A DNA stretch of 64,000 bases from Riemerella anatipestifer (GTDB lineage: Bacteria > Bacteroidota > Bacteroidia > Flavobacteriales > Weeksellaceae). Below, piece after piece: positions 46,589 through 64,000 of the stretch. Position numbers and translations under genes: made by a program. Below the pieces are notes generated by a model, which made no database searches, was not told where the DNA came from, and saw only the letters and a program-made list of their open reading frames with translations. Where the stretch lies: contig NZ_CP142016.1 of the NCBI RefSeq assembly GCF_035666175.1, forward strand, positions 310,001-374,000, in the 5' to 3' direction. The stretch's first letter is position 1. Every line of letters begins with the position of its first letter.

Positions 46589-46653
46589 TTTACTTCTAAT
46601 TTTATTTATATCCAAAAATAGACTAAAATATTCAAAAAATCTACATTTATAAC

Positions 46654-46661
46654 TATATTTG
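46654..46661 (+). promoter_or_regulatory. -7 box for the HAD gene
   Basis: TATATTTG, 29 bases before the ATG at 46691. Confidence 0.5.
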
Positions 46662-46690
46662 TAGCTTATTAAGATTTTAATACCTAAGTT

Positions 46691-47122: not shown

Positions 47123-47145
47123 AAAGTTCGTAAAAATAATCATTT

Positions 47146-47955
47146 ATGATACAGCTTAAGACGATTGAGGAGCTAAGATTGATGAAGGAGAGTGCCCAAC
47201 TGGTTTCTAAAACTTTGGGTATGTTGGCAAAGGAAATAAAACCAGGCGTTACCACCAATTATTTAGATACTCTAGCAGCGGAATACATCAAAGACCACGG
47301 CGGCGAACCTGCTTTCCTAGGAATGTATGGCTTTCCTAAAAATCTTTGTATTTCGCCAAATTCAGAGGTGGTACACGGTATTCCTAATGATACTCCTCTT
47401 AAAGAGGGCGATATACTTTCTGTAGATTGTGGCGTCTATATGAATGGATTTTACGGCGACCACGCTTACTCTTTTGAAGTAGGAGAAGTAACTCCAGAAA
47501 CAAAAAAATTATTAAAAGTAACCAAAGAATCTTTATACAAAGGGATAGAACAATGCGTAAGAGGAAAACGCGTTGGTGATATATCTCACGCTATACAAAG
47601 CCATTGCGAGGCTCATGGTTATGGTGTGGTGAGAGAACTTGTAGGGCATGGCTTAGGCAAAAAAATGCACGAAGACCCACAAGTACCTAACTACGGCAGA
47701 AAAGGAAGTGGAAAGGTATTAAAAGACGGTATTGCTCTAGCTATAGAACCCATGATTAACATGGGAACTCACGAAGTAGTTTTCCATAGCGATGGCTGGA
47801 CGGTAACTACTAAAGATAACCTTCCTTCAGCACACTTTGAACATAATGTATGTATCATTGGAGGGAAACCTGTTTTACTCTCTACCTTTAAATATATTTA
47901 TGAAGCTCTCGGTATCAGTAGTTCAGAAGAAGAACCTTTTAATATGGATTTTTAA
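47146..47955 (+). CDS. map: Methionine aminopeptidase, type I
   Basis: Removes the initiator Met from nascent proteins. It has 269 aa in the pita-bread fold with five metal ligands: two Asp in LSVDCGVYMNGFYGDHAYSF, His in RELVGHGLGKKMHEDPQVPN, Glu in AIEPMINMG and Glu in the final strand SAHFEHNVCI. There is no N-terminal extension, so it is type I. It is followed by a strong terminator. Confidence 0.95.
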   Translation: MIQLKTIEELRLMKESAQLVSKTLGMLAKEIKPGVTTNYLDTLAAEYIKDHGGEPAFLGMYGFPKNLCISPNSEVVHGIPNDTPLKEGDILSVDCGVYMNGFYGDHAYSFEVGEVTPETKKLLKVTKESLYKGIEQCVRGKRVGDISHAIQSHCEAHGYGVVRELVGHGLGKKMHEDPQVPNYGRKGSGKVLKDGIALAIEPMINMGTHEVVFHSDGWTVTTKDNLPSAHFEHNVCIIGGKPVLLSTFKYIYEALGISSSEEEPFNMDF

Positions 47956-47963
47956 ATAAAAAT

Positions 47964-47998
47964 AAAAAGCGGTTTGACAAAAAATCAAACCGCTTTTT
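47964..47998. terminator. Bidirectional terminator between map and pheA
   Basis: Stem AAAAAGCGGTTTGA / TCAAACCGCTTTTT with a 7-base loop. The opposite strand serves pheA. Confidence 0.9.
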
Positions 47999-48019
47999 AT
48001 TTTTGTCATCAATTTTTTC

Positions 48020-48862
48020 CTAGCCTTCTAAAAGATACTCGTTATAATCGCCTAGAAATTTAACTTTAACTCCTATAGACTCTAATTCTTCCAATGCATT
48101 TTGATAAAGGATATTTCCCCAATCTCCCACAACATTGATAAAGAAGAAATAATTACCAAGTCCTGTTTTTAGAGTTCGACTTTCTATTTTAGATAAATTC
48201 ATCTTACGCCACGCAAATACCGATAAAATCTGATGTAATCCTCCAGCATAGTCCGTTGGTAAAGTAACCAATAAACTGGATTTTTGAGCTAAAGACTGAT
48301 ACGGTAGCTCTAACTTATTCTCTCCTCTCTTTGAAACCACCACAAAGCGAGTATGATTTTGTTCAAAATCCTGTATGTTAGAGTGTAAAATTTTAAGGTT
48401 ATAAAGCTTTGCTGCATAAGTATTCGCAACCGCTGCCCAAGGTTCATTTGGATTTTCTGAAACTAGTTTTGCCGCCGCTGCTGTAGAAGTATAATCTGTG
48501 GTCAAAATTTCTTTGAATTGATTTCTTCTAAAATGAAAAGTTTGGGCTAATGCCTGTGGGTGAGAAATAATATTCTCTACCGAAGTATTATTAGGGTGTA
48601 CCATTAAATGATGAGAAATAGGCATCACTACCTCCGTATTGATAGCAATATCTTTAAAATCGTATAAATAATCCAGAGTTACTGAAACGGTACCCTCTAT
48701 GGAATTTTCTAAAGGAACTACAATTTTATCTACTTTACCCTCGTCTAAGGCTATAAAACAGTCTAATATACTGGTTTGAGGCAATAACTCCTCATTCAAA
48801 AAAACCTGAGAGGCAGCTAACTGAGTGAAAGAAGCCTGTGGTCCTAAAAACGCTATTTTCAT
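48020..48862 (-). CDS. pheA: Prephenate dehydratase
   Basis: Converts prephenate to phenylpyruvate in phenylalanine synthesis. It has 280 aa: the catalytic PDT domain with IAFLGPQASFTQLAASQVF, VPLENSIEGTVSVTLDYLYD, the TSTAAAAKLVSENP motif and NHTRFVVVSKRG, then a C-terminal ACT domain (LLVTLPTDYAGGLHQILSVF, NLSKIESRTLKTGLGNYFFF) for feedback regulation by phenylalanine. No chorismate mutase domain is fused. It lies 17 bases downstream of the universal-stress gene. Confidence 0.93.
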   Translation of the reverse strand: MKIAFLGPQASFTQLAASQVFLNEELLPQTSILDCFIALDEGKVDKIVVPLENSIEGTVSVTLDYLYDFKDIAINTEVVMPISHHLMVHPNNTSVENIISHPQALAQTFHFRRNQFKEILTTDYTSTAAAAKLVSENPNEPWAAVANTYAAKLYNLKILHSNIQDFEQNHTRFVVVSKRGENKLELPYQSLAQKSSLLVTLPTDYAGGLHQILSVFAWRKMNLSKIESRTLKTGLGNYFFFINVVGDWGNILYQNALEELESIGVKVKFLGDYNEYLLEG

Positions 48863-48879
48863 ATTATGATTACTCTATT

Positions 48880-49698
48880 CTAAGGTAACACTACCAGTGG
48901 AATATCACCTACATATACCAACTCGTTAACTAAAAACTTCCTAAATATATGGTCTGTTACAAATCTATTCCCTTTCTGTAATACAAGAATTTCCGTTTCA
49001 TTATTATTGATGACTTTCTTTATTCCTTCAGAGGGAACATTAGACTCATATATAGCATAGTCTGCTTGGTAATTTTCAGCATAAAGTTCTACTAATTTCT
49101 CCAAATTTCTTTTGTGTTCTTCCACATTTTCTTCTGGCTTCGCTATATAGAAAAAAACAATTTGTGTTTCTTTTTCATTTACAAACTTCAAAAAATGGTT
49201 CAGTTCTAGAATATTCAGCGGATACTTCTGCTTTACTGCTACAAATATTCTATTTACGGAGAATGAATCAATTTCCCCTGGAAGCACAACAACACTATTT
49301 TTAATTTTATCAATTATATGTACAGCTTTACTTCCTAAAAATATTTTCTTTAAAATACCTGCATTTTTTGTTCCTAGAAGAATCATATTATGATATGGTT
49401 CACTCAGTAACTTTTCTAATATTTCTTGCAAGTCTAATTCCGAAGCTAAATAAGAAACCTCTAAAGTAGATGATATAATAGGTTTGACAAAACCTCTAAG
49501 TTTATCAAAGGCTTCCGCATTAGAATTTCTAATAATTTTGTTTCTATCTTGTATATCTGCCAATGCTGGTACCAACACATTGTTCTGATGAACTAATACC
49601 AGTTCTACATCAACCTTGCTTCCCCAATCACTGGCATATTTCAATAAGTTTTCAGAATATTCGGAAAAATCTACTAATACAATAATTCGTTTTTTCAT
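48880..49698 (-). CDS. Universal stress protein, tandem-domain
   Basis: A 272-aa cytosolic protein with two UspA-like folds. The N-terminal domain has KRIIVLVDFSEYSENLLKYA and LGTKNAGILKKIFLGSKAVH (the G-2x-G-9x-G(S/T)-like nucleotide loop is degenerate). The C-terminal domain is weaker (NRIFVAVKQKYPLNILELNH and TEILVLQKGNRFVTDHIF). It lies 3 bases after the antiporter stop on the same strand, so they share a transcript; this pairing suggests a role in ion or pH stress. Confidence 0.85.
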   Translation of the reverse strand: MKKRIIVLVDFSEYSENLLKYASDWGSKVDVELVLVHQNNVLVPALADIQDRNKIIRNSNAEAFDKLRGFVKPIISSTLEVSYLASELDLQEILEKLLSEPYHNMILLGTKNAGILKKIFLGSKAVHIIDKIKNSVVVLPGEIDSFSVNRIFVAVKQKYPLNILELNHFLKFVNEKETQIVFFYIAKPEENVEEHKRNLEKLVELYAENYQADYAIYESNVPSEGIKKVINNNETEILVLQKGNRFVTDHIFRKFLVNELVYVGDIPLVVLP

Positions 49699-49701
49699 AT
49701 G

Positions 49702-51183
49702 CTATCCTGTATTTATTGGGTTACGCAAACATTGTTTTACTTCTTCCAAATCACTATTCTTATTTGCTAAAACAATAAGAGTATCATTTTCTTTTATAGC
49801 GGTAGAACCTCCTGGGCGAAGATACTTCCCTTCCCTCTTTATCATCACTATAAACGCTGACTTAGGAAAATGTAAATCTACTATTCGTTTTTCTTTAGCA
49901 TAATAATCTGGCTCTATATTATATTCTTGCAAAAGAGATTTAGGAATGTTTGCCATTTCGCTTTCGTCTTCTTCTACTATATTTTTCTTTTCTTCCTCTG
50001 GTAATGCTACATTAAGCCATTTAGCAAAAATGGAAAGCGTAGTCCCTTGAATAAGAACAGAGGTAACTGATATAAAGAATACAATATTAAAGATAATGTG
50101 AGCTTTATCTATCCCTGCTAATAAAGGGTAAGTTGCAAATACGATAGGTACTGCACCTCTAAGTCCTACCCATGATATATAAAGTCTTCTTCTCATTTTC
50201 ATTTTGAAAAAGGCGAGACTAATAAGCACACTTGCTGGACGAGCTACTAGTATTAAAAACAATGATATTACTAAACCTATACCTATGTAAGGAACTATTT
50301 GAGTTGGATAAACCAAAAGCCCCAAAGTAAGGAACAGAACAATTTGCATAAGCCAAGCCAAACCGTCATACATTCCTAGAATGGTATTCTTGTAGATAAT
50401 ATCTTGATTACCTAAATACACCGCACATATATAAATAGCCAAGAACCCATTACCATCTATTGCATCTGTCGCAGAGAATACAATAAACATAATGGCTATT
50501 ACTAAAACTAGATAAAGTCCCTCAAAACCTAGTTTAATATTATTTATAATAAACTTACTTAATTTCCCAAACAAAATCCCCGCAATACCACCTATTATCA
50601 TTTGTCTAAAAAACAACGGTATAATAGAAGTTATACTTTGGTCTTGATTGATAACTAAGGTTAAGAAAGCTATTGTGAGCACATACGCCATCGGGTCATT
50701 ACTACCACTTTCCAGCTCTAGAGTTGGTCTAAGATTAGTTCTTAATGCCAAATTCTTTGACCTAAGAATAGAAAATACTGCAGCTGCATCTGTGGAAGAC
50801 ACTATCGACCCTAAAAGCATACTCTCATAGATGGTAAAATCTGTAACATACCATACGAATAGCCCCAAACATAATGCTGTAAGTAAAACGCCTACCGTAG
50901 ATAACACCAAACCTTCTTTTATGACGGGTTTTATGGATTTCCAATTAGTGTCTAAACCTCCCGAAAATAGTATAAAATTAAGAGAAACTATCCCTATAAA
51001 TTGAGCCGTTTTAGAATTATCAAAATGAATTCCTCCAAAACCATCAGACCCAGCCAACATACCTATAGCCAAAAATAACAGCAATGTAGGTACTCCAAAT
51101 TTATATGATGTTTTTCCAACAATGATACTTATGAAAAGTAGTATAGAACCAATAAGTAATATATTTTCCGTCGTTAAAGCCAT
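49702..51183 (-). CDS. nhaP2: CPA1-type potassium/proton antiporter with RCK-C domain
   Basis: A 493-aa inner-membrane cation/proton antiporter (NhaP2/CvrA family). About 12 helices occupy residues 1-390, with the transport-core motifs LLGSIVSSTDAAAVFSILRS and LESGSNDPMAYVLTIAFLTL holding conserved acidic residues, and YISWVGLRGAVPIVFATYPL. The C-terminal ~90 residues form a TrkA-C/RCK-C regulatory domain (LHFPKSAFIVMIKREGKYLR, GSTAIKENDTLIVLANKNSD). It likely exports K+ (or Na+) in exchange for H+; the exact ion is not decided by sequence. Confidence 0.88.
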   Translation of the reverse strand: MALTTENILLIGSILLFISIIVGKTSYKFGVPTLLLFLAIGMLAGSDGFGGIHFDNSKTAQFIGIVSLNFILFSGGLDTNWKSIKPVIKEGLVLSTVGVLLTALCLGLFVWYVTDFTIYESMLLGSIVSSTDAAAVFSILRSKNLALRTNLRPTLELESGSNDPMAYVLTIAFLTLVINQDQSITSIIPLFFRQMIIGGIAGILFGKLSKFIINNIKLGFEGLYLVLVIAIMFIVFSATDAIDGNGFLAIYICAVYLGNQDIIYKNTILGMYDGLAWLMQIVLFLTLGLLVYPTQIVPYIGIGLVISLFLILVARPASVLISLAFFKMKMRRRLYISWVGLRGAVPIVFATYPLLAGIDKAHIIFNIVFFISVTSVLIQGTTLSIFAKWLNVALPEEEKKNIVEEDESEMANIPKSLLQEYNIEPDYYAKEKRIVDLHFPKSAFIVMIKREGKYLRPGGSTAIKENDTLIVLANKNSDLEEVKQCLRNPINTG

Positions 51184-51276
51184 TTATTCTGCAAAATTTT
51201 CCTATTCAAGCAAAGATACAGAAATACAGCTTAAAAAACAACTATTCTAGTAATCAACACTTAAACAATACATTAC

Positions 51277-51313
51277 AAAAAGAAGCTACCTCAAGTTGAG
51301 ATAGCTTCTTTTT
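51277..51313. terminator. Terminator between the antiporter promoter side and secDF
   Basis: Stem AAAAAGAAGCTA / TAGCTTCTTTTT. Because secDF (minus strand) ends just to the right, it is the secDF terminator. Confidence 0.8.
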
Positions 51314-51334
51314 ATTATGAATAATTTATATCAA

Positions 51335-54211
51335 TTAAATTTTGATATCTTCCTGTTTTTTACCTTTTAGTAAATCATACGATATACCCGAAGCAATAAA
51401 GATAGAAGAATAAGTACCAAAACCAATACCTAATAATAAGGCAAACATAAACCCTCTTAAACTATCACCTCCAAATATGAATATCGCTAAAATTACTAAC
51501 ATTACAGTAAGTGAAGTGTTAATAGTTCTACCCAAAGTACTACTAATGGAATCATTAAACAACCCTTCCAAAGTAGTAGACTTTCTCTCTCTTAGATATT
51601 CACGGATACGGTCAAATACAATTACAGTATCATTGATAGAGTACCCTAGCACTGTAAGTATCGCTGCGATAAAGTCCTGATTAATCTCCATATTGAAAGG
51701 AGAAATTTTATAGAATAAAGAGTAAGCTCCTAAAATGATAATAGCGTCATGGAACAATGCTAACACAGCACCTAGAGAGAACTGCCATCTTCTAAAACGG
51801 AACAAAATATAGATAAATATTCCTAATAAAGAAGCTAGTACTGCAAAAGTACCACCTATCTTAATATCATCCGCTACAGATGGTCCTACTTTAGTAGATG
51901 AAACTATACCTAAATTATCTCCTTCCGCACTCTTAAATTTATCTAATGTATAACCAGCTGGATAATTAGACTTCAATCCTTCAAATAATTTAGCTTCAAT
52001 CTCTTGGTCTGCCGCTAATGATTCATCATCAATCTTATAGTCAGTTGTGATTTTTAATTGATTAGAAGTACCAAATGTCTTTACATCTACTGAGTTATTC
52101 TTTCCGTCCTTAGTTTGGAACAATTCTGATAGACTAGCTTCCGCTTGAGCAGCATCTACAGTTTTATCAAACTTAACTACATAGTTTCTTCCTCCTTCAA
52201 AATCTACCCCTAGCTTAAAGCCGTTTACCACTATAGAAACCACACATATAGCAGTAAGAACTCCTGAAAAAGCATAAGCAAACTTTCTCTTCTCTATGAA
52301 GGCTACCCATACATTTCTAAATACATTTTTCGTAGCTGATGTCCATACAGAAAGACCTTTACCTTTATTAAGTCTACTAAATATCATTACTCTAGAAAGT
52401 AGCACTGAAGTAAAGAATGTCATAATAAGACCTATAATAAGTGTTACCGCGAAACCTTGGATAGGTCCTGTACCAAATATATAAAGCACCACCGCAGTAA
52501 GCAATGTAGTAATATGTCCGTCTACAATCGCAGAAAGTGCATGTTTGAAACCATCATGATAAGCCTCTCTAATATTTTTACCTGCAAAAAGCTCTTCTTT
52601 AGTTCTTTCATAGATAATTACATTGGTATCTACTGCCATCGCCATCGTTAGAACTATACCCGCAATACCTGGTAAAGTAAGCGTAGCATCCATAGAGTCC
52701 ATAATACCAAAGATATAGAACAAGTTGATAATCATAGCAATTACAGCATAAACACCTGCACCTCCGTAGTAGAATATAATATAAACTACAATAAAGATAA
52801 ATGCTATAATAAATGACCACATACCCGCATCGATAGAAGCCTGCCCTAAAGATGGACCTACAACATCTGCCTGTACAATTTTAGCACTTGCTGGTAATTT
52901 ACCTGTGTTTAAAACATTTACTAAATCTTGAGCTTCATCTTGAGTAAAGTTCCCCGAAATTTGTGTACGCCCATTAGGGATTGCATTCACTACATTAGGT
53001 GCTGTATATACTCTATTGTCTAGAGTAACCGCTACTGGTTTACCTACATTTTTTTCAGTTAGAATCTTCCAGTCCTTAGTACCCTCACTATCCATCTGCA
53101 TATCTACCACTACTCTACCTATTTGGTCGTAGCTGATATTTGCCTTATCTACCGCACCATCTACAGGAGCTTTACCTGAAATATTAGAACGAATAGCATA
53201 CAATACCAAGTGGTCAGGGTCTGTAGATTCAGGCTTATAAGCCCATAAAAACTTAGTATATTTAATGTTACTTGGTCTTGCGTTTAAAGCCACTGAGCTA
53301 TTAAGAATTTTGTTAACAGTAGCTGTGTCGCTTAACTTAATGTTACCAACTCCATTGCTTCTAAGCGTATTTAGATTAAGTAACGCTGGGAAATTAGTTG
53401 TTTTAGCAACACCCATAGAATCTCCCTTAGCTAATACTAATTTTGAAAGTTGCTCAAAGTAAGGTGCTACTTCTGGCACTTGCTGAACTTCCCAAAACTG
53501 AAGTTTAGCAGAAGTCTGAAGCATTTTCTTTACTCTATCAATATCTTTAATACCTGGCATCTCCACCAATATTCTACCTGTACCAGGTACTCTCTGAACA
53601 TTAGGTTGAGTAACTCCCATTTTGTCTATACGAGTTCTAATAACTTCATAAGCAGAACCTACCGCAGCATCTATCTTCTTTCTGATGATAGATTTAACCT
53701 CATCATCATTAGTGTTAAATTTGATTTCACTACTTAATTTTTGAGTTCCAAATATTTCTGGACTCGCTAACTTTAAGTTTGCTCCTTTACTTTTGTTCAC
53801 GTTATCAAACTGAACAAAGAAGTCCTCTATATAAGATTTAGTAGAATTTCTCTGAGCTACATCTGTTTTATCTAGTGCTTCTATGAGGATTGGGTTAGAT
53901 GAATAGTTAGTTAAATCCATCACCAAATCTCTCTGATTGATTTCCAAAAGCACATTGATACCACCTTTTAAGTCTAGACCTAACTTCATTTCACGCTCTT
54001 TAGCGGCAGTGTAATAAAGTTTAGTAAACCATAAATTAAGAGTATCTTTAGACAGACGATCTATCTCTTTTTGATACTTTGCCTGATTGTCTCCTGCTAT
54101 TGCTCTAGCTTCTTTCTCTACCTTGCTCGCATAAAAAGTAGGGAGCATTTCGTTAAGACAAATAAGCCCTAGAACAATCGCAACAACTGTAATAAGTCCT
54201 TTTCCTTGCAT
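51335..54211 (-). CDS. secDF: Protein translocase subunit SecDF (fused)
   Basis: A 958-aa fusion of SecD (residues 1-~620) and SecF (~640-958) that uses proton flow to finish Sec-dependent export. SecD parts: LGLDLKGGINVLLEI, the P1 periplasmic domain (RIDKMGVTQPNVQRVPGTGR, LVEMPGIKDIDRVKKML), and the helix motif AVDTNVIIYERTKEEL. SecF parts: GVDFEGGRNYVVKF, LGYSINDTVIVFDRIREYLR and the C-terminal helices. Fusion into a single chain is normal in Bacteroidota. It has its own promoter and terminator. Confidence 0.96.
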   Translation of the reverse strand: MQGKGLITVVAIVLGLICLNEMLPTFYASKVEKEARAIAGDNQAKYQKEIDRLSKDTLNLWFTKLYYTAAKEREMKLGLDLKGGINVLLEINQRDLVMDLTNYSSNPILIEALDKTDVAQRNSTKSYIEDFFVQFDNVNKSKGANLKLASPEIFGTQKLSSEIKFNTNDDEVKSIIRKKIDAAVGSAYEVIRTRIDKMGVTQPNVQRVPGTGRILVEMPGIKDIDRVKKMLQTSAKLQFWEVQQVPEVAPYFEQLSKLVLAKGDSMGVAKTTNFPALLNLNTLRSNGVGNIKLSDTATVNKILNSSVALNARPSNIKYTKFLWAYKPESTDPDHLVLYAIRSNISGKAPVDGAVDKANISYDQIGRVVVDMQMDSEGTKDWKILTEKNVGKPVAVTLDNRVYTAPNVVNAIPNGRTQISGNFTQDEAQDLVNVLNTGKLPASAKIVQADVVGPSLGQASIDAGMWSFIIAFIFIVVYIIFYYGGAGVYAVIAMIINLFYIFGIMDSMDATLTLPGIAGIVLTMAMAVDTNVIIYERTKEELFAGKNIREAYHDGFKHALSAIVDGHITTLLTAVVLYIFGTGPIQGFAVTLIIGLIMTFFTSVLLSRVMIFSRLNKGKGLSVWTSATKNVFRNVWVAFIEKRKFAYAFSGVLTAICVVSIVVNGFKLGVDFEGGRNYVVKFDKTVDAAQAEASLSELFQTKDGKNNSVDVKTFGTSNQLKITTDYKIDDESLAADQEIEAKLFEGLKSNYPAGYTLDKFKSAEGDNLGIVSSTKVGPSVADDIKIGGTFAVLASLLGIFIYILFRFRRWQFSLGAVLALFHDAIIILGAYSLFYKISPFNMEINQDFIAAILTVLGYSINDTVIVFDRIREYLRERKSTTLEGLFNDSISSTLGRTINTSLTVMLVILAIFIFGGDSLRGFMFALLLGIGFGTYSSIFIASGISYDLLKGKKQEDIKI

Positions 54212-54246
54212 TTTCAGTAATTTACAACATTAAAAATTATAGTCGG

Positions 54247-54254
54247 CAAATATA
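54247..54254 (-). promoter_or_regulatory. secDF promoter -7 box
   Basis: TATATTTG on the minus strand, 35 bases before the secDF ATG. Confidence 0.45.
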
Positions 54255-54329
54255 ATGTTTTTCAGTATAATTATAAACTTTATTTGCCATTGTTTTCATT
54301 TTAAACAAATGAGAAATATCAATACTCTT

Positions 54330-55685
54330 CTAAACAGTCATAGAAAAAATTCTAGTTCCTGGAGCTTTTCTTAACATTCTCAAATCAAAAGTCATTGCTA
54401 CATTTCGTGTGAATGCTTTACCAGCTTCTGTAATTCTGATTTTATTTTCTGATATTTCCACAAGACCGTCCGCTTCCATTTCTTTAAGTTTTTCTATGGT
54501 AGTTTCTAACTCTGGAAAAGCCGTTGCTTCCGTCCAAGAAGTCTCTAGCTGACACATAATATTGAGTATATGACGACGGATTTTCAAATCTTCATCGGTT
54601 AGGATATGCCCTCTAAACACAGGAATTTCTCCTTTCTCTACTCGCTGCTGATAGGCTTCCACTGTTTTTTCGTTTTGAGCAAAAGCGTACCAAGAGTCAG
54701 AAATAGCACTCATACCCAATCCTACCATAAGTTGAGTTTTCCCCGAAGTATAACCCATAAAATTCCTATGGATTTTCTTATTAAGCATAGATTGGTAAAG
54801 GTCATCGTGCTCTAGTGAAAAATGGTCCATTCCTATCTCCTTATAGCCCAACTCTTCCAAAAGCTGCTTCCCATTCTCGTAGAGTTTTCTTTTTTCTTCG
54901 CCTGACGGAAGGTCATTCTCATCAAAACCTCTCTGCCCTACTCCTTTAATCCAAGGCACATGAGCGTAAGAATAAAATGCTAATCTATCGGGTTTCAAAG
55001 TCATTGTTTTTCTTATGGTATATTCCATTTTTTCCCAAGTATGGAACGGAAGTCCAAAAACCAAATCGTGAGAAACACTTTCGTAACCTATTTCTCTAGC
55101 CCACTGGGTCACTTTTTCTACATTCTCAAAAGGCTGAACTCTATTGATGGCTTTTTGTACTTTCTCATCATAATCTTGCACTCCAAAACTCACCCTTCTA
55201 AATCCTAAATCGTAAAGCACTTGCAAATGCTCTCTAGTGGTATTGTTAGGGTGTCCTTCAAAAGAGAACTCGGGTTTCTCTGCTATTGTTCCACCTGAAA
55301 GAATTTCCTCTATCAATATTTTCAAGTTTTTAGGCGAGAAAAAAGTAGGCGTTCCTCCACCTAAATGTAATTCCTTAATTTTAGGTTTTTCGTCAAAAAG
55401 AGCCAAGTACAATTGCCACTCTTTAATCACCGATTGTAAATAAGGTGTTTCTACAGAATGTTGCTTTGTAATCCGTTTATGACAGGCACAAAAGGTACAT
55501 AATTGCTCACAAAATGGCAGATGTATGTAGATGGAAATTCCTTCGTCTTTAGACTCCTTAAATGATTTTATCACCGTATGTTCCCAAGATTGATGTGTAA
55601 AACTCTCCTCTTCCCAATAAGGTACTGTAGGATATGAAGTATATCTAGGACCTGGTATATTATATTTATCTATTAGTGAATTCAT
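54330..55685 (-). CDS. hemN: Oxygen-independent coproporphyrinogen III oxidase
   Basis: A radical-SAM enzyme that decarboxylates coproporphyrinogen III during haem synthesis without oxygen. It has 451 aa, with GPRYTSYPTVPYW, the [4Fe-4S] site LPFCEQLCTFCACHKRITK (CxxxCxxC plus the extra Cys typical of true HemN), LHLGGGTPTFFSPKNL, RVSFGVQDYDEKVQKAINRV, DLVFGLPFHTWEKM and the C-terminal HemN domain. The Tyr in the IYIHLPFC stretch and the CxCH pattern favour HemN over HemW-like proteins. Confidence 0.93.
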   Translation of the reverse strand: MNSLIDKYNIPGPRYTSYPTVPYWEEESFTHQSWEHTVIKSFKESKDEGISIYIHLPFCEQLCTFCACHKRITKQHSVETPYLQSVIKEWQLYLALFDEKPKIKELHLGGGTPTFFSPKNLKILIEEILSGGTIAEKPEFSFEGHPNNTTREHLQVLYDLGFRRVSFGVQDYDEKVQKAINRVQPFENVEKVTQWAREIGYESVSHDLVFGLPFHTWEKMEYTIRKTMTLKPDRLAFYSYAHVPWIKGVGQRGFDENDLPSGEEKRKLYENGKQLLEELGYKEIGMDHFSLEHDDLYQSMLNKKIHRNFMGYTSGKTQLMVGLGMSAISDSWYAFAQNEKTVEAYQQRVEKGEIPVFRGHILTDEDLKIRRHILNIMCQLETSWTEATAFPELETTIEKLKEMEADGLVEISENKIRITEAGKAFTRNVAMTFDLRMLRKAPGTRIFSMTV

Positions 55686-55689
55686 TTTG

Positions 55690-55697
55690 CAAAAATA
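55690..55697 (-). promoter_or_regulatory. hemN promoter -7 box
   Basis: TATTTTTG on the minus strand, only 4 bases before the ATG, so the mRNA leader would be very short or absent. Confidence 0.4.
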
Positions 55698-55821
55698 ACG
55701 TTTTTTAAACTCATTGTAAAAATTATACTTAGGTATTTATTTCTCTTACGGCAACATCTCATCTCTTGTTTTTTTTTGGAAATTTCTAAAGCCTCTATTT
55801 TTTTACCCCACAAGAAAAAGT

Positions 55822-55829
55822 TATCTTTG
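55822..55829 (+). promoter_or_regulatory. -7 box for the symporter operon
   Basis: TATCTTTG, 27 bases before the ATG at 55857. Confidence 0.5.
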
Positions 55830-55856
55830 CGATGTTTATAGAAAAATGATTTTCGT

Positions 55857-57308
55857 ATGTCGCCAATTCTCTTACTAGGAATTATTATTGCCTATTTTGG
55901 CATTCTGCTATGGGTAGCTTATAGAACAGGTAAAGGAAGCAATAATGATAGTTTTTTTATAGGCAATAGGAGTAGTAATTGGATTTTGGTAGCATTCGGT
56001 ATGATAGGGACTTCTCTATCTGGAGTTACCTTTGTAAGTGTCCCTGGACAGGTGGGAAAAGACAGTTTCCACTATCTACAAGTTACCATAGGATACCTCA
56101 TAGGATACATTGTCATTGCGTATGTTTTATTACCTCTTTATTACAGACTAAAACTAACCTCCATCTATGGATACCTTCAGCAGAGAATGGGAGCTTTATC
56201 TTATAAATCAGGAGCTTCTATTTTTATTGTATCTCGTTTGGTAGGTGCTACGGCTAGGCTTTATTTAGTAGTCAATATTTTACAAATGACTATCTTGGAT
56301 AGCCTTGGCGTTCCTTTTATTGTAACTACTCTCATTATTTTGGTAATGATTATCCTCTACACCTACGAAGGCGGCGTAAAAACCATCGTATGGACAGACA
56401 CTTTACAAACTACAGGAATGCTATTAGGACTTATTGTGTGTACCTTCTATATGCTTAATCATTTAGGACTAAATATCGCAGATAGTTTCGCCGCAATGAG
56501 CGAACAAGGTTATACTAAAGTATTTGACACCGATGTTAATGATAAAGGGTTCTTCATTAAACAAATCTTAGCAGGAGCTTTCATTACCATTACAATGACA
56601 GGGATTGACCAAGAAATGATGCAAAAGTCTATCTCGGTAACCAACCTAAAAGACAGTCAGAAAAATATGGTAACTCTAGGATTTATATTGCTAGGTGTTA
56701 TTTCATTATTCCTTTATATGGGTGGATTGTTACACCTTTACGGCATACAAGAGAATATTTCTAGCACAGGAGACCAGCTATTCCCAGATGTAGCTCTTAA
56801 CCATATGCCGCCATTTATTTCTATTATTTTTATCATTGCTCTTATTTCTGCCCTATTTCCTAGTGCTGATGGAGCTATGACGGCACTGACTTCATCTCTT
56901 TGTATTGATATATTTGGACTGAAAGAAAAAAATATCTCCGCTTCCGAAAAAGAAAAATTCAGAAAGAGAGTACACCTTTGGGTGGCAGTATCATTTTTAA
57001 TAATGGTACTCATTTTTAAATGGATTAACGATAATTCTATGATAGGTCTTATCCTTAAATTAGCAGGCTTCACCTATGGACCTCTACTTGGGCTTTTCGC
57101 TTTTGGGATTTTCACTAAGAAAACAGTTAAAGATAAGCTAGTGCCTTACATCTGTATTACCGCTCCTATCTTATCATTTTTAATAGATAAATATCAAAGT
57201 CTTGTTTTTGGCGATTTCCAAATCGGGTTAGAATTACTTATCATCAACGGATTACTTACCTTTGTAGGGCTTTGGTTCATCAGTAGTAAAAAACAATCAT
57301 TTCAATAA
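55857..57308 (+). CDS. Sodium:solute symporter (SSS family)
   Basis: A 483-aa inner-membrane transporter with about 13 helices. Landmarks: IIIAYFGILLWVAYRTGKGS at the N-terminus, FFIGNRSSNWILVAFGMIGT and SLSGVTFVSVPGQVGKDS (sodium and substrate site in TM1/TM2), GYLQQRMG, and LISALFPSADGAMTALTSSL (TM8, sodium-site Ser/Thr). These fit the SLC5-like SSS family. The substrate cannot be told from sequence (sugar, amino acid or organic acid). The transketolase subunit gene begins 18 bases downstream. Confidence 0.88.
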   Translation: MSPILLLGIIIAYFGILLWVAYRTGKGSNNDSFFIGNRSSNWILVAFGMIGTSLSGVTFVSVPGQVGKDSFHYLQVTIGYLIGYIVIAYVLLPLYYRLKLTSIYGYLQQRMGALSYKSGASIFIVSRLVGATARLYLVVNILQMTILDSLGVPFIVTTLIILVMIILYTYEGGVKTIVWTDTLQTTGMLLGLIVCTFYMLNHLGLNIADSFAAMSEQGYTKVFDTDVNDKGFFIKQILAGAFITITMTGIDQEMMQKSISVTNLKDSQKNMVTLGFILLGVISLFLYMGGLLHLYGIQENISSTGDQLFPDVALNHMPPFISIIFIIALISALFPSADGAMTALTSSLCIDIFGLKEKNISASEKEKFRKRVHLWVAVSFLIMVLIFKWINDNSMIGLILKLAGFTYGPLLGLFAFGIFTKKTVKDKLVPYICITAPILSFLIDKYQSLVFGDFQIGLELLIINGLLTFVGLWFISSKKQSFQ

Positions 57309-57326
57309 AATTAAACCTATATTATA

Positions 57327-58178
57327 ATGGCAAAATCAGTAGAAGAATTAAAACATCTCACCACGCAAATCAGAAGAGATATTTTGAGAATGGTACACGC
57401 AGTAAACTCTGGACACCCAGGTGGCTCTTTGGGTTGTGTAGAATACTTTACAGCTCTTTACGGAAAGGTAATGAACTACTCGCTACCATTTAAAATGGAA
57501 GGCAAAAATGAAGATTTATTCTTCCTTTCTAATGGGCACATTTCTCCTGTTTATTACAGCACACTTGCCAGATTCAACTTCTTTCCAGTGGAAGAATTGG
57601 CTACTTTCAGGAAACTAAATACTAGACTGCAAGGGCACCCTACCACGCACGAAGGTTTACCTGGGGTAAGAATTGCTTCTGGTTCTCTAGGGCAAGGACT
57701 TTCTGTAGCTGTAGGTGCGGCTCTAGGTAAAAAGCTAGATAATGATAAAAGTATTGTATTCTCTCTACACGGCGATGGAGAATTACAAGAAGGACAAATT
57801 TGGGAAGCTCTTATGTACGCTAGCCATAATAAAGTAGATAACCTCATTGCAACCATAGACTACAACAACCGACAAATAGACGGTGATGTGTCTGATGTAC
57901 TTTCTTTAGGGAACTTAAAAGCTAAACTAGAAGCCTTTGATTGGCAAGTATTGGAAGTTAAAGAAGGTAACAACCTAGAAGCTGTAATTGCGGTGCTAGA
58001 AGAAGCTAAAGCACAGACAGGAAAAGGGAAACCTATCGCTATCATTATGCATACCGAAATGGGTAACGGTGTAGATTTTATGATGGGAACTCACGCTTGG
58101 CACGGTAAGGCACCTAACGATGAGCAACTAGAAAAAGCCTTAGCTCAACTTTCTACAGATAATTTGGCTGATTATTAA
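57327..58178 (+). CDS. Transketolase, N-terminal subunit
   Basis: The thiamine-diphosphate-binding half of a split transketolase, 283 aa. Motifs: NSGHPGGSLGCVEYFTALYG, LSNGHISPVYYSTLARF, RIASGSLGQGLSVAVGAALG, and the ThDP/Mg site HGDGELQEGQIWEALMYASH with NRQID. It must pair with a C-terminal subunit of about 310 aa. In related genomes the two halves are usually adjacent; here the next gene is a small membrane protein followed by the repeat-rich accessory region, and no C-subunit appears in the remaining 5.8 kb. Confidence 0.93.
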   Translation: MAKSVEELKHLTTQIRRDILRMVHAVNSGHPGGSLGCVEYFTALYGKVMNYSLPFKMEGKNEDLFFLSNGHISPVYYSTLARFNFFPVEELATFRKLNTRLQGHPTTHEGLPGVRIASGSLGQGLSVAVGAALGKKLDNDKSIVFSLHGDGELQEGQIWEALMYASHNKVDNLIATIDYNNRQIDGDVSDVLSLGNLKAKLEAFDWQVLEVKEGNNLEAVIAVLEEAKAQTGKGKPIAIIMHTEMGNGVDFMMGTHAWHGKAPNDEQLEKALAQLSTDNLADY

Positions 58179-58191
58179 ATTTTTAAATAAA

Positions 58192-58452
58192 ATGGAAAAT
58201 TCAAATAAAGCAGAAAAAATCGTTGTAGTAGCCCCTACTAAAAGTGTAGGGATTAGCCTATTGCTCACTTTCTTTTTCGGTCCGTTGGGAATGCTTTATT
58301 CCACCGTAGTAGGAGCACTAGTAATGCTACTCGTATCGGGTGTGGCGGCGTTTCTCACGCTAGGAATTAGTATCTTCTTTACCCAGCCTATCTGTATGAT
58401 TTGGGGTGCAATGGCAGCACATCGCCATAACAAAAAAATCATTATTCAATAG
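58192..58452 (+). CDS. Small membrane protein, uncharacterised
   Basis: An 86-aa protein with two or three hydrophobic segments (SVGISLLLTFFFGPLGMLYS and VVGALVMLLVSGVAAFLTLG) and a polar, basic C-terminus (AAHRHNKKIIIQ). The FFGPLGMLYS turn is common in small membrane proteins of Bacteroidota. No function recognised. It starts 13 bases after the transketolase N-subunit. Confidence 0.65.
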   Translation: MENSNKAEKIVVVAPTKSVGISLLLTFFFGPLGMLYSTVVGALVMLLVSGVAAFLTLGISIFFTQPICMIWGAMAAHRHNKKIIIQ

Positions 58453-58554
58453 ATAGTGAACAGAAGTCTGATTGCAAGACAACTGAAGAAAACTTAATTT
58501 TGGATAAAAAAGAGATTATGAAAAAGAAACTGTTCTCCTTAATTTGGCATTTAT

Positions 58555-58743
58555 ATTGAGACGGACTTACACCTTCCTAACTGGGACAGCACATTTCCCA
58601 ACTCGGACAAAAGAATTCCTAAGTAGGACAGAGGATTTCCCAAGTGGGACGAACGCCGTCCAATGTAGTACCAAAAATATCCTAACCTGGACGATAAATT
58701 TCCTACACGGGACAAATCTTTTCCTAGATAAACTCAATAAATT
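58555..58743. repeat. Tandem array of 21-bp units (about 8 units, decaying at both ends)
   Basis: Seven units start at 58576, 58597, 58618, 58639, 58660, 58681 and 58702, each exactly 21 bases. A weak unit precedes (58555, GGAC in the same phase) and a decayed one follows (58723). The shared core is CCYAASTNGGAC followed by 9 variable bases. Several cores are near-palindromic (TCCCAAGTGGGA). In one frame the array encodes degenerate 7-residue repeats (FLTGTAH, FPTRTKE, FLSRTED, FPSGTNA), but no convincing start codon supports a protein. The whole 58453-58800 gap holds nothing else that I can recognise except a possible 13-codon peptide (MKKKLFSLIWHLY) just before the array. Confidence 0.8.
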
Positions 58744-58800
58744 TTTATCTAAATTTTTAATAAATTCATAATTTTAGTATCACAATTAAAACTTATCACT

Positions 58801-59112
58801 ATGGCAAAGAAATCATATTCAGAAAACATCACCTCGGCTAAGGTAATGGCCGACGGGCTCAGCCGATATAAAAGTAACCTCCCCGCAGGTGTTCAGGAAA
58901 GTCAAATATCAGAATTGGAGACCCTAAGACAAACCATAGAAACCCTCAACAGCGAACAAGAAAAACTAAAAGCTGACCTCAAAACCAAAACCCAAGCCCT
59001 GGATGCCAAATTGAACGAACTGCAAAAACTCTATGCTCAACTCAAAAAACGCATCAAAATCGATATAGAACAAAGCCAATGGAAAGAGTTCGGGATTGAG
59101 GATAAAAAGTAA
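58801..59112 (+). CDS. Coiled-coil protein, conserved in Bacteroidota, function unknown
   Basis: A 103-aa soluble protein. Residues ~35-88 form a strong heptad coiled coil (ISELETLRQTIETLNSEQEK, LKADLKTKTQALDAKLNELQ). The N-terminus (KSYSENITSAKVMADGL) and the C-terminal WKEFGIEDKK look like a conserved cap. I recall similar short proteins in other Bacteroidota, but no function. It lies directly after the 21-bp array (57 bases from the last unit) and 19 bases before a GlcG-like gene. Confidence 0.65.
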   Translation: MAKKSYSENITSAKVMADGLSRYKSNLPAGVQESQISELETLRQTIETLNSEQEKLKADLKTKTQALDAKLNELQKLYAQLKKRIKIDIEQSQWKEFGIEDKK

Positions 59113-59131
59113 TTTTTAAAAAATCATCATT

Positions 59132-59629
59132 ATGAAAAATGTAATCATTCTATTTGCTTTGATATTAGGAAATTTCGGATTAGCACAGCAAAAAGAATCC
59201 TCATTAGAACATACATTAAGTATCAACCAAAACGGTGCATTAAAATTGGCCGAACAAGCCAACCTTGAAGCGGCTAAACTTAATAAACAGATCTCTATTG
59301 CGATACTTAACAACTCGGGGGTTGTTATCCTACTCTTGAAAGGGGATACCGTAGGACCTCACAACACAGAGGCCTCTCGTAGAAAAGCCTATACCGCACT
59401 TTCTACAAAAACCCCTAGTTTTATCTTAATGCAAAAAGCCGCCGCTAACCCTACTGCTCAAAATTTGAATACCCTACCCGAATTACTCCTATTAGGAGGT
59501 GGTGTTCCTATCTGGAAAGATGGGGTTTTGGTGGGGAGCATCGGTATATCTGGAGGCGGTAGTGGCGAAAACGACCACAATATCGCTCAAAAAGTGGCAG
59601 AGAATTTAGGATTTAGCACTTCTAAATGA
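59132..59629 (+). CDS. Secreted GlcG/HbpS-family protein, copy 1
   Basis: A 165-aa protein with signal peptide ([17 protein letters not shown]). The mature part is a GlcG/HbpS (DUF336) domain: [57 protein letters not shown], then the closing [20 protein letters not shown]. HbpS of Streptomyces binds haem and iron outside the cell; other members have no proven role. This copy is almost identical in DNA to those at 61482 and 63036: I saw one base change early and a different last ~10 codons (VAENLGFSTSK). Confidence 0.8.
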   Translation: MKNVIILFALILGNFGLAQQKESSLEHTLSINQNGALKLAEQANLEAAKLNKQISIAILNNSGVVILLLKGDTVGPHNTEASRRKAYTALSTKTPSFILMQKAAANPTAQNLNTLPELLLLGGGVPIWKDGVLVGSIGISGGGSGENDHNIAQKVAENLGFSTSK

Positions 59630-59762
59630 TACCTATAAATGATTATTTACTGAAGAAAACAAAGCGTTTTGGAACAAATTAATCGGTTAATTGCCACACT
59701 TTTTGAGAAAGAACCCTGTCTTTTGGAGGAATTTATTTTCTCTTTAGTTGATAGAAAAAATT

Positions 59763-60395
59763 ATGAAAATTAAAACTCTTATGAAAAATTTATTACAAAT
59801 CTTAGTCAATCTACAACCAAAGTTCATTCATTTTATACGGATTGCCATAGCTGTAGTTATGTTATGGATCGGGGGATTAAAGGTGTTCCAATATGAAGCC
59901 GATGGTATTGTTCCTTTTGTTACGAACAGTCCTTTTATGAGTTTTTTCTATAATAACACGGGAAAAACTTATATCCAAGAAGACGGGACAGAAATAGCCC
60001 AATACAAAAAACACCGAAACCCGGAGGGTAAAATGGTAGCCGAAAATATAGCTTGGCACAAAACCAACGGTACTTATCCGTTTTCTTATGGGTTGGGAAT
60101 GGTAATTGTAAGCATAGGAATTTTAACACTTTTAGGAATTTGGAGTCCTAAAATAGGATTGATAGGAGGGTTGTTAACCTTCGGAATGTCGGTGATTACG
60201 CTTTCTTTTCTAATCACAACCCCAGAGGTGTATGTTCCAAAATTAGATGGTGATTTTCTAACTCCGCAATATGGCTTTCCATATTTGTCGGGTGCAGGGC
60301 GTTTGGTTTTAAAAGATGTAATTATGATGGCAGCGGGACTTATTTGTGCCTCTGACTGTGCGAAAAGGATTTTAAATACCGAAAAATCTGTGTAA
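59763..60395 (+). CDS. DUF417/YkgB-like membrane protein
   Basis: A 210-aa inner-membrane protein from ATG 59763 (a TTG at 59748 is also in frame). It has four helices, beginning with FIRIAIAVVMLWIGGLKVFQ; then YEADGIVPFVTNSPFMSFFY, YGLGMVIVSIGILTLLGIWS, GGLLTFGMSVITLSFLITTP and the end YLSGAGRLVLKDVIMMAAGL. This is the DUF417/RclC pattern, whose E. coli member belongs to the reactive-chlorine response. A link to oxidative stress here is inference. It lies between two GlcG/HbpS-like genes. Confidence 0.82.
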   Translation: MKIKTLMKNLLQILVNLQPKFIHFIRIAIAVVMLWIGGLKVFQYEADGIVPFVTNSPFMSFFYNNTGKTYIQEDGTEIAQYKKHRNPEGKMVAENIAWHKTNGTYPFSYGLGMVIVSIGILTLLGIWSPKIGLIGGLLTFGMSVITLSFLITTPEVYVPKLDGDFLTPQYGFPYLSGAGRLVLKDVIMMAAGLICASDCAKRILNTEKSV

Positions 60396-60427
60396 TTTTG
60401 GGATTTGAAACCAAATTATAATTCAAT

Positions 60428-60919
60428 ATGAAATCGGTTACTTTATTTTTCACATTATTTCTGGTCTTTATGAAGGTAAATGCTCAAACCAAAAATCTAT
60501 ACGAACCTGTATTAACGGGTGATGCAGCAATGAAAATAGCACAAAAAGCCTTTGACGAAGCCAATAAAAGTGGGCATCATATCAGTGTTACGGTGGCAGA
60601 TCAATCAGGGCAAACCCTCGCCGTACTTAGGCATCACAATGCCGGGGTACATACCTTGCGAGCTAGTTATAAAAAAGCCTTTACTGCCAATTCTCAAAAA
60701 AGAGAAACCGCCGAAATTGCACAAGGCATCAAAAATGGGACAATCCCCGAAGATGTTCGTTATTTGGACGAAAATATTTTAATTTTGGACGGAGGAGTGC
60801 CCATTTATATAGACGGAAAAGTAGTTGGCGGTATTGGTGTAGGCGGTGCACACGGAAGCGAAGATGTACGGATTGCAAAAGCAGGAATTTCTGCCATTGA
60901 AATAAATACGAACCAATAA
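60428..60919 (+). CDS. Secreted GlcG/HbpS-family protein, second type, copy 1
   Basis: A 163-aa paralogue of the GlcG-like protein. Signal peptide [17 protein letters not shown], then [60 protein letters not shown] and the closing [20 protein letters not shown]. The His-rich HHNAGVH stretch could bind haem or metal. The 3' part (from about 60664) is identical to that of the gene at 61976, whereas the 5' part differs, a sign of recombination between paralogues. Confidence 0.8.
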
Positions 60920-60997
60920 TCATCTTAATAGATTTTGCAACCCAAATAAAGGAGGATTACAACTGAAAACAATTACTAATTTTTAAATTTTATACCT

Positions 60998-61408
60998 ATG
61001 AAAAGAACATTTTTTTTAATGTTAATGCTTGCCTTTGCAAGTCTAACTTTTGCACAAGAAGCAAAATACCAATTGTCAAGTCATATTTTGGACATTACAA
61101 AAGGACAGCCTGCACCCAATGTAAGCATTCGCCTTTCCAAATTGCAGCATAAAGACCATTGGGTAACAGTTGATGAAAAGACAACTGACCAAAACGGGCG
61201 TATCAAAGACTTTTTAAAAGAAGGAAAAGGCGTAAACCACAAGGGAATTTACAAACTCACTTATTTTACAAAACCTTATTTTGAGAAATTGGGACAAGAC
61301 ACTTTCTACCCGTACATAGAGGTGGTTTTTGAAATAAAAGATAATAATCATTATCATGTACCTATAACTCTTTCACCTTACGGATATTCTACTTATAGAG
61401 GAAACTAA
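60998..61408 (+). CDS. Secreted 5-hydroxyisourate-hydrolase-like (transthyretin-like) protein, copy 1
   Basis: A 136-aa protein with signal peptide MLMLAFASLTFAQ. The mature domain follows the HIUase/transthyretin fold: SSHILDITKGQPAPNVSIRL (catalytic-type His), KTTDQNGRIKDF (Arg) and HYHVPITLSPYGYSTYRGN (His and the C-terminal tetrapeptide). The last residue is Asn where true HIU hydrolases have Ser or Thr (YRGS). With a signal peptide it acts in the periplasm; no urate oxidase or other ureide gene is nearby, so the substrate is open. Confidence 0.85.
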   Translation: MKRTFFLMLMLAFASLTFAQEAKYQLSSHILDITKGQPAPNVSIRLSKLQHKDHWVTVDEKTTDQNGRIKDFLKEGKGVNHKGIYKLTYFTKPYFEKLGQDTFYPYIEVVFEIKDNNHYHVPITLSPYGYSTYRGN

Positions 61409-61481
61409 AAGTGAAAAATAAATTAAAATGAAATATACTTATACCGAAAAAAAATCGTTAAGTAAATTAAAAATAATCATT

Positions 61482-61979
61482 ATGAAAAATGTAATCATTC
61501 TATTTGCTTTGATATTAGGAAATTTCGGATTAGCACAGCAAAAAGAATCCTCATTAGAACATACATTAAGTATCAACCAAAACGGTGCATTAAAATTGGC
61601 CGAACAGGCCAACCTTGAAGCGGCTAAACTTAATAAACAGATCTCTATTGCGATACTTAACAACTCGGGGGTTGTTATCCTACTCTTGAAAGGGGATACC
61701 GTAGGACCTCACAACACAGAGGCCTCTCGTAGAAAAGCCTATACCGCACTTTCTACAAAAACCCCTAGTTTTATCTTAATGCAAAAAGCCGCCGCTAACC
61801 CTACTGCTCAAAATTTGAATACCCTACCCGAATTACTCCTATTAGGAGGTGGTGTTCCTATCTGGAAAGATGGGGTTTTGGTGGGGAGCATCGGTATATC
61901 TGGAGGCGGTAGTGGCGAAAACGACCACAATATCGCTCAAAAAGCGGCAGAGAATTTAGGATTTAATACCCAACAATGA
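61482..61979 (+). CDS. Secreted GlcG/HbpS-family protein, copy 2
   Basis: The same protein type as at 59132, 165 aa from ATG 61482. An upstream in-frame ATG at 61428 would add 18 basic residues in front of the signal peptide, so the internal start is preferred. The C-terminus reads [10 protein letters not shown]. The stop TGA overlaps the ATG of the next gene (ATGA at 61976-61979), so the two GlcG/HbpS-type proteins are translationally coupled. Confidence 0.82.
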
Positions 61980-62473
61980 AAATATCTATTCATATTTTAC
62001 TATTCGTAAGCCTACTGATAAATATCCCTCTACAAGCCCAGAGCAAAACTTTATATGAGCCTGTATTAACAGGTGATGCAGCAATGAAAATGGCACAAAA
62101 AGCCTTTAACGAAGCCAATAAAAGTGGGCATCGTATCAGTGTTACGGTGGTCGATCAGTCGGGGCAAACGCTCGCTGTACTTAGGCATCACAACGCTGGG
62201 GTGCATACCTTACGAGCCAGTTATAAAAAAGCCTTTACTGCCAATTCTCAAAAAAGAGAAACCGCCGAAATTGCACAAGGCATCAAAAATGGGACAATCC
62301 CCGAAGATGTTCGTTATTTGGACGAAAATATTTTAATTTTGGACGGAGGAGTGCCCATTTATATAGACGGAAAAGTAGTTGGCGGTATTGGTGTAGGCGG
62401 TGCACACGGAAGCGAAGATGTACGGATTGCAAAAGCAGGAATTTCTGCCATTGAAATAAATACGAACCAATAA
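61976..62473 (+). CDS. Secreted GlcG/HbpS-family protein, second type, chimeric copy 2
   Basis: A 165-aa protein with signal peptide [20 protein letters not shown], different from that of the 60428 gene. Up to about codon 80 it matches the partial gene at 63530. From about 62218 it is identical to the 60428 gene. I infer a crossover product of the two paralogues at the duplication junction. The conserved residues ([27 protein letters not shown]) are intact, so it should be functional. It overlaps the upstream GlcG-like gene by 4 bases. Confidence 0.82.
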
Positions 62474-62551
62474 TCATCTTAATAGATTTTGCAACCCAAA
62501 TAAAGGAGGATTACAACTGAAAACAATTACTAATTTTTAAATTTTATACCT

Positions 62552-62962
62552 ATGAAAAGAACATTTTTTTTAATGTTAATGCTTGCCTTTGCAAGTCTAA
62601 CTTTTGCACAAGAAGCAAAATACCAATTGTCAAGTCATATTTTGGACATTACAAAAGGACAGCCTGCACCCAATGTAAGCATTCGCCTTTCCAAATTGCA
62701 GCATAAAGACCATTGGGTAACAGTTGATGAAAAGACAACTGACCAAAACGGGCGTATCAAAGACTTTTTAAAAGAAGGAAAAGGCGTAAACCACAAGGGA
62801 ATTTACAAACTCACTTATTTTACAAAACCTTATTTTGAGAAATTGGGACAAGACACTTTCTACCCGTACATAGAGGTGGTTTTTGAAATAAAAGATAATA
62901 ATCATTATCATGTACCTATAACTCTTTCACCTTACGGATATTCTACTTATAGAGGAAACTAA
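62552..62962 (+). CDS. Secreted 5-hydroxyisourate-hydrolase-like protein, copy 2
   Basis: 136 aa, identical in amino-acid sequence to the protein encoded at 60998 and exactly 1554 bases downstream. The same signal peptide, HILD/NGRI/HYHVP motifs and YRGN terminus are present. Confidence 0.85.
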   Translation: MKRTFFLMLMLAFASLTFAQEAKYQLSSHILDITKGQPAPNVSIRLSKLQHKDHWVTVDEKTTDQNGRIKDFLKEGKGVNHKGIYKLTYFTKPYFEKLGQDTFYPYIEVVFEIKDNNHYHVPITLSPYGYSTYRGN

Positions 62963-63035
62963 AAGTGAAAAATAAATTAAAATGAAATATACTTATACCG
63001 AAAAAAAATCGTTAAGTAAATTAAAAATAATCATT

Positions 63036-63533
63036 ATGAAAAATGTAATCATTCTATTTGCTTTGATATTAGGAAATTTCGGATTAGCACAGCAAAAAGA
63101 ATCCTCATTAGAACATACATTAAGTATCAACCAAAACGGTGCATTAAAATTGGCCGAACAGGCCAACCTTGAAGCGGCTAAACTTAATAAACAGATCTCT
63201 ATTGCGATACTTAACAACTCGGGGGTTGTTATCCTACTCTTGAAAGGGGATACCGTAGGACCTCACAACACAGAGGCCTCTCGTAGAAAAGCCTATACCG
63301 CACTTTCTACAAAAACCCCTAGTTTTATCTTAATGCAAAAAGCCGCCGCTAACCCTACTGCTCAAAATTTGAATACCCTACCCGAATTACTCCTATTAGG
63401 AGGTGGTGTTCCTATCTGGAAAGATGGGGTTTTGGTGGGGAGCATCGGTATATCTGGAGGCGGTAGTGGCGAAAACGACCACAATATCGCTCAAAAAGCG
63501 GCAGAGAATTTAGGATTTAATACCCAACAATGA
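63036..63533 (+). CDS. Secreted GlcG/HbpS-family protein, copy 3
   Basis: 165 aa from ATG 63036, identical to copy 2 at 61482, exactly 1554 bases downstream. An upstream in-frame ATG at 62982 is again disfavoured by the signal peptide. It overlaps the next gene by 4 bases (ATGA). Confidence 0.82.
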
Positions 63534-64000
63534 AAATATCTATTCATATTTTACTATTCGTAAGCCTACTGATAAATATCCCTCTACAAGCCCAGAGCAA
63601 AACTTTATATGAGCCTGTATTAACAGGTGATGCAGCAATGAAAATGGCACAAAAAGCCTTTAACGAAGCCAATAAAAGTGGGCATCGTATCAGTGTTACG
63701 GTGGTCGATCAGTCGGGGCAAACGCTCGCTGTACTTAGGCATCACAACGCTGGGGTGCATACCTTACGAGCCAGTTATAAAAAAGCCTTTACTGCCAATT
63801 CTCAAAAAAGAGAAACCGCCGAAATTGCACAAGGCATTAAAAATGGAACAATCCCAGAAGATATTCGTTATTTGGACGAAAATATTTTAATTTTGGACGG
63901 AGGCGTGCCCATTTATATAGACGGAAAAGTAGTTGGGGGTATTGGTGTAGGCGGTGCACACGGCAGCGAAGATGTACGGATTGCCAAAGCGGGAATTTCT
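63530..64000 (+). CDS. Secreted GlcG/HbpS-family protein, second type, copy 3 (partial)
   Basis: ATG at 63530; the frame is open to the right edge, about 157 codons. The N-terminal half is identical to the 61976 gene. After 63838 the DNA differs at scattered, mostly silent sites (PEDI for PEDV, GGVP kept), so this copy keeps what I take to be the ancestral 3' half of this paralogue. It has the same family motifs as the other two. Confidence 0.78.

Follow-up and report, generated by a model that had tools for sequence, protein, structure and literature searches.

The array described here occupies the right-hand end of a 64,000-nucleotide window, the whole stretch of DNA that was analysed (bases 310001-374000 of contig 1 of the Riemerella genome G000, which comprises 2,573,752 bp in two contigs). 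The end of the array lies beyond the window and was read as locus L005, in which the window position equals the L005 position plus 55999. Genes given below with both end coordinates in the window are on the plus strand, as are the repeat units and the block shared between them. The order of the locus is tktN, a TM2-like gene, p103, A1, an RclC-like gene, B1, HIU1, tktC'A2, B2, HIU2, tktC'A3, B3, HIU3 and tktC. On the left flank tktN (57327-58178; Pfam PF00456) encodes the N-terminal half of a split transketolase, and the TM2-like gene (starting at 58192) separates it from p103 (58801-59112), a cargo gene for a protein of 103 residues that has no Pfam match and recurs beside HIU or HbpS-like genes in three other genomes (G005, G002 and G068) and in the suf operon. 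Degenerate 21-bp repeats (TTCCTAACTGGGACA-like) are found at 58574-58735, between the TM2-like gene and p103.

The A and B genes encode HbpS-like proteins that score 105.8-109.9 bits against PF03928, for which the cut-off is 25. They comprise A1 (59132-59629; 108.7 bits), a further A copy that lies upstream; B1, the left B paralogue (60428-60919; 105.8 bits); the tktC'-A2 open frame (61428-61979; 109.9 bits), in which A proper begins at 61482 and which overlaps the start of B2 in an ATGA; B2, the middle gene (61976-62473); tktC'-A3 (62982-63533); and B3, the right paralogue (63530-64000), which leaves the window and ends at 64027 in the genome-extended sequence. An RclC-like DUF417 membrane protein is encoded only in the first unit (59766-60395; PF04224, 222.5 bits), and it narrowly misses the RclC equivalog model NF040476 (272.4 bits against a cut-off of 275). 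HIU1 (60998-61408), HIU2 (62552-62962) and HIU3 (starting at 64106, outside the window and after B3) encode HIUase/transthyretin-like proteins; HIU1 matches PF00576 with 133.6 bits and exceeds the equivalog cut-off of the 5-hydroxyisourate hydrolase model TIGR02962 (132.9 against 87.45 bits). Intact tktC follows HIU3 from 64536, likewise outside the window. To its right G000 carries an IS982-family transposase gene (L005 10099-10977, genome-extended 66098-66976) that is absent from G004. The products of A, B and HIU are predicted to be exported, since they have hydrophobic N-termini ending in A-Q. Searches of the array for structured RNA found none, and the Bacteroidetes-type promoter pattern had no matches in the array.

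Repeat unit and mosaic structure of B2

When the sequence is compared with itself at an offset of 1554 bases, a single perfect run of identity is obtained at 60665-62283 (1619 bp, no mismatches). The exact 1554-base recurrence claimed in the initial annotation is therefore real, although the base given there as its start, 60664, is the last differing site and the run begins one base later. The length of the run equals one unit of 1554 bp plus 65 bp that are common to B1, B2 and B3, in agreement with the earlier report of a block of about 65 bases shared by the left and right paralogues; this block lies at 60665-60729 and again at 62219-62283 and 63773-63837. The sequences diverge to the left of the run, and to its right there are 12 differences between B2 and B3 followed by an identical run of 505 bp (62504-63008). 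Two adjoining unit copies thus fill approximately 60665-63837. The first (60665-62218) consists of a B 3' half, HIU, tktC'-A and a B 5' half, and the second (62219-63772) is the unit that is extra relative to G004 and absent there. The unit was first described as a pair of HIUase and GlcG genes; it in fact comprises three genes together with a captured 5' end of tktC (MKYTYTEKK). There are no differences between A2 and A3, nor among HIU1, HIU2 and HIU3, which suggests that the amplification is recent.

The middle HbpS-like gene had been proposed to be a chimera of a right-hand 5' half and a left-hand 3' half, and this is borne out by the diagnostic sites, defined as the positions from B to the tktC start at which B1 and B3 differ. 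B2 agrees with B3 at all 52 sites up to 60664 and with B1 at all 12 sites beyond it. The chance of so perfect an ordering is 3e-13, or 2e-8 when the 5' sites are restricted to the 17 whose alignment is reliable. The 3' sites also carry information on the history of the copies: B1 and B2 share five variants (positions -268, -115, -96, -66 and -49, counted from the HIU start) which are absent from B3 and from G004, and 7 of the 12 sites are private to B3, with G004 agreeing with B1 and B2 there. The mature B2 protein differs from that of B3 at two residues (V/I and I/V) and from that of B1 at five. We therefore rejected the possibility that the hybrid is a chimeric protein with a new function: two conservative changes separate it from B3, and since it is nearly the same as B3 and B1 no new function is expected of it.

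An older event is recorded in each downstream unit, where the junction of HIU with tktC and 27 bases from the start of tktC (ATGAAATATACTTATACCGAAAAAAAA) are followed by a 27-nt joint and then by A. The captured nine codons (61428-61454, repeated at 62982-63008) are in frame with the A2 and A3 open frames and, as read from the sequence, would add 18 residues ahead of the native start. The whole join occurs only twice in G000, and the junction between tktC' and A2 is present once in G004; among the loci compared, the 27-nt joint is found only at this scar in the two genomes. The capture of nine tktC codons is best read as the scar of an older duplication or rearrangement, and the presence of the junction in both genomes places this step before the island that they share.

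A shorter allele on a shared island

Six Riemerella genomes were compared, one per species, among which G004 is complete in a single contig. This sister species carries at the same site the order tktN, TM2, p103, A1, RclC, B1, HIU1, tktC'A2, B2, HIU2 and tktC, one unit fewer than G000, and its HIU-to-HIU distance is 1554 bp, as in G000. The comparison of strains for a shorter allele that was suggested at the outset has thus found one, in a sister species, and this two-unit allele is the state before amplification that unequal crossover predicts. G004 also contains a second A-B-HIU set elsewhere (L036 4899-6398), with protein identities of 80% for A, 73% for B and 75% for HIU; its A and B genes also overlap in an ATGA, and it has no counterpart match in G000. 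No further array was found in a scan of the genome contigs, including those of R. columbina and R. columbipharyngis, and we found no report of a tandem duplication in R. anatipestifer in the open-access literature searched.

G000 and G004 have almost the same sequence across the region that contains the array. The adjoining 11 kb on the left (46631-57300) are 95% identical and tktN shows 31 mismatches in 852 bases, the last of them at 58007, inside the gene. There are then no mismatches in 58180-59131 or in 64028-65685, and a divergence of about 2% resumes to the right of the IS982-type insertion. The near-identical island therefore covers 58008-64000 of the window and continues to about 66010 (L005, L027), with flanks that differ by about 2-5%. 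Such a pattern would be expected if Riemerella species had recently exchanged this DNA, with one recombination endpoint inside tktN and the other past tktC. Since natural competence is known from both R. anatipestifer and R. columbina (PMC8383284, PMC7965970), transformation is a likely route of the exchange. A1 is an exception within the island, as 62 of its 498 bases differ from A1 of G004 (87.6% identity) whereas it is 99% identical to A2 and A3; from this we infer that A1 of G000 was probably overwritten by A2-like sequence, through conversion or import. The overwritten tract corresponds to 59126-59615, and the last bases of A1 and the gap between A1 and rclC retain other variants.

Proposed origin of the additional unit

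Tandem duplication and amplification of genes by unequal homologous recombination is a general process in bacteria. In the history that we propose for G000, the starting island would have contained a pair of units, A1-rclC-B1-HIU1 and tktC'A-B-HIU2, at a spacing of 1554 bp, and B1 would first have acquired 3' variants of its own. Misaligned units would then have undergone RecA-type recombination, for which the 65 bp shared by 60665-60729 and 63773-63837 are the simplest site, so that a crossover to the right of 60664 and to the left of 60730 would have copied the B1 variants behind a B3-type 5' half. The product would be one added 1554-bp unit bearing a B2 that resembles B3 in its 5' half and B1 in its 3' half, and the variants specific to B3 could have arisen before or after the crossover. 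In the assembled sequence the junction lies at homologous positions of B1 and B3, the perfect run has the length of the unit plus the shared block (1619 = 1554 + 65), and the shorter allele has the same spacing. The repeat, the mosaic and the sister-species allele that is one unit shorter at this locus are observed directly, and recombination between repeat units is well supported. The recombining partner may have been another copy inside the array or homologous DNA taken up from outside, the latter being possible since the genus is naturally competent.

The crossover between diverged paralogues put forward in the initial annotation is upheld by the G004 allele and by the spacing, but the 65-bp block is only its most parsimonious site, and up to 790 bp could have served. 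Similarly, the mosaic layout stands while its origin in the present duplication does not: the right-hand B of G004 already joins a 'right'-type 5' half to a 3' half identical to that of B1 in the same genome. The two G004 units agree without a difference over 790 bp, starting at the counterpart of base 60665 and running as far as the tktC scar, and they diverge to the left of that base. Because the G004 gene is mosaic, this layout and the left boundary of the 65-bp block predate the amplification, and placing the crossover within 65 bp depends on unit 1 having possessed private 3' variants beforehand.

These observations also lend themselves to a different history: a crossover at any point of the ~790 bp duplicated the right-hand unit, and import or conversion afterwards altered the 3' half of B3. 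The exceptional copy would then be B3 and not B2, and the crossover site would not be the 65-bp block. The 790-bp identity of the G004 units from the same left edge speaks for such a sequence of events, as do the seven B3-private sites at which G004 resembles B1 and B2, but an extra step is needed to account for the five variants that B1 and B2 share to the exclusion of B3 and G004, and we consider this history somewhat unlikely. A more improbable one holds that the transferred island ancestrally had three units and that the reverse recombination removed one of them in G004. The mechanism is reversible and the island has recently moved between species; however, the G004 units are identical to each other and match no 3' haplotype of G000 exactly, and a loss would require separate homogenisation of B1 and B2 in G000. 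That G000 gained a unit rather than G004 losing one is thus the direction suggested by parsimony from two genomes. It is highly improbable that the assembler added a unit to a true pair. Although the evidence is from the assembled sequence, B2 and B3 bear distinct variants, the genome is in two contigs, and in the independent single-contig assembly of G004 two units are joined by the same junctions; moreover, the usual error of short-read assembly is the collapse of repeats and not their expansion.

We consider it quite probable, for the reading as a whole, that recombination between units added one unit to the array; the inferred effect would be more of each of the three exported proteins and not a new protein, and a setting of redox or heme stress is a more tentative part of this reading. 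A single crossover does not explain the extra tracts, of conversion or import, in A1 and in the B 3' halves. Amplification of this kind is a known and ordinary process, of which the locus is a well-supported and well-documented case: as in tandem amplification generally, direct repeats recombine and the join falls at homologous positions of paralogues, giving a hybrid gene. The G000 array differs in that its repeats are diverged paralogues within an island that has moved between species, and in that the shorter allele is observed in a sister species.

Related loci and possible function

Compared at one genome per species, the tktN-tktC site varies between species in copy number and content; the variation between cells or strains suggested at the outset would be a possible extension of this. 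G000 has three units and G004 two, whereas the gap in G005 holds one A-HIU pair preceded by p103 and an SMR-like gene (L033), that in G002 holds p103 and HIU as well as a block that includes DNA methylase-like genes (L034; here and in G005 the names were read from translations), that in G003 a TM2-like gene alone (L032), and in G001 tktN and tktC are adjacent with nothing between them (L028). Among 30 tktC loci examined from the Weeksellaceae the gap measures 21-103 bp in 23, and the remaining loci have either a wider gap or a tktN beyond the range covered; HIU adjoins HbpS-like genes in 12 of 30 loci of the family. A second genus likewise has HIU in the tktN-tktC gap, in the order p103-B-A-HIU-tktC in G068 (L092) and as HIU in G092 (L093). 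The G068 copy of p103 (L092 4380-4691) is 94% identical across genera, compared with 74-79% for the neighbouring HIU and tktC, and p103 is likely to have been transferred recently between genera. G000 contains p103, HIU and HbpS-like genes at a further site, between sufB-like and sufC-like genes (L006 2967-5037, G000:C1 ~1592966-1595036; names read from translations), so that the suf operon is a second housekeeping operon with an HIU/HbpS module. A 5-hydroxyisourate hydrolase gene of R. anatipestifer, whose locus tag falls between the tags of sufB and sufD, is included in a list of genes up-regulated by iron (PMC5609570).

Urate catabolism was rejected as the main reason for HIUase amplification, as uricase (PF01014) and OHCU decarboxylase (PF09349) are absent from all six Riemerella genomes; the FAD-type urate hydroxylase lay outside this search. 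In E. coli the DUF417 protein RclC is needed for resistance to HOSCN and its relative RcrB for resistance to HOCl (PMC12096828), and hiuH-msrPQ is induced by HOCl (PMC9302797). The island resembles rclABC and hiuH-msrPQ, operons that answer host oxidants (PMC12096828, PMC9302797), in combining a DUF417 membrane protein with an exported HIUase. In contrast to them it lacks rclA, rclB, msrP and msrQ and has HbpS-like genes, and its RclC-like protein falls just short of the cut-off of the RclC model. The A and B proteins belong to the same Pfam family as HbpS of Streptomyces (3fpv) and are likewise apparently exported; the nearest solved relative of the island proteins is a putative extracellular heme-binding protein (4nkp, E 3.8e-52), but the family also holds EfgA (6c0z) and NahX (9jth), which have other roles, and heme binding by the island proteins is putative. 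On the strength of the missing uricase and OHCU decarboxylase and of the oxidant links of RclC and hiuH in E. coli, we tentatively suggest that the island might protect the envelope against redox or heme-related stress and that the amplification would act through dosage. The presence of one HIU/HbpS pair within the suf operon is consistent with a role in iron or Fe-S metabolism instead, which could apply. It is conceivable, though we think it rather unlikely, that the tktN-tktC gap of Riemerella and the related genus is a recurrent arrival site, entered by transformation through tktN and tktC homology, where HIUase-HbpS modules borrow the tktC start and afterwards gain or lose copies by recombination, as an array tuning dosage for host oxidant or heme stress.

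The amplification is likely to raise the dosage of the HbpS-like and HIUase-like proteins that are predicted to be exported. The two- and three-unit alleles of sister species, on a shared and recently exchanged island, provide a base-resolved before-and-after pair for bacterial gene amplification, and the expansion and contraction of the array thereby become testable in naturally competent Riemerella. HIUase and HbpS-like exported proteins that occur without a urate pathway are possible targets of selection for dosage.
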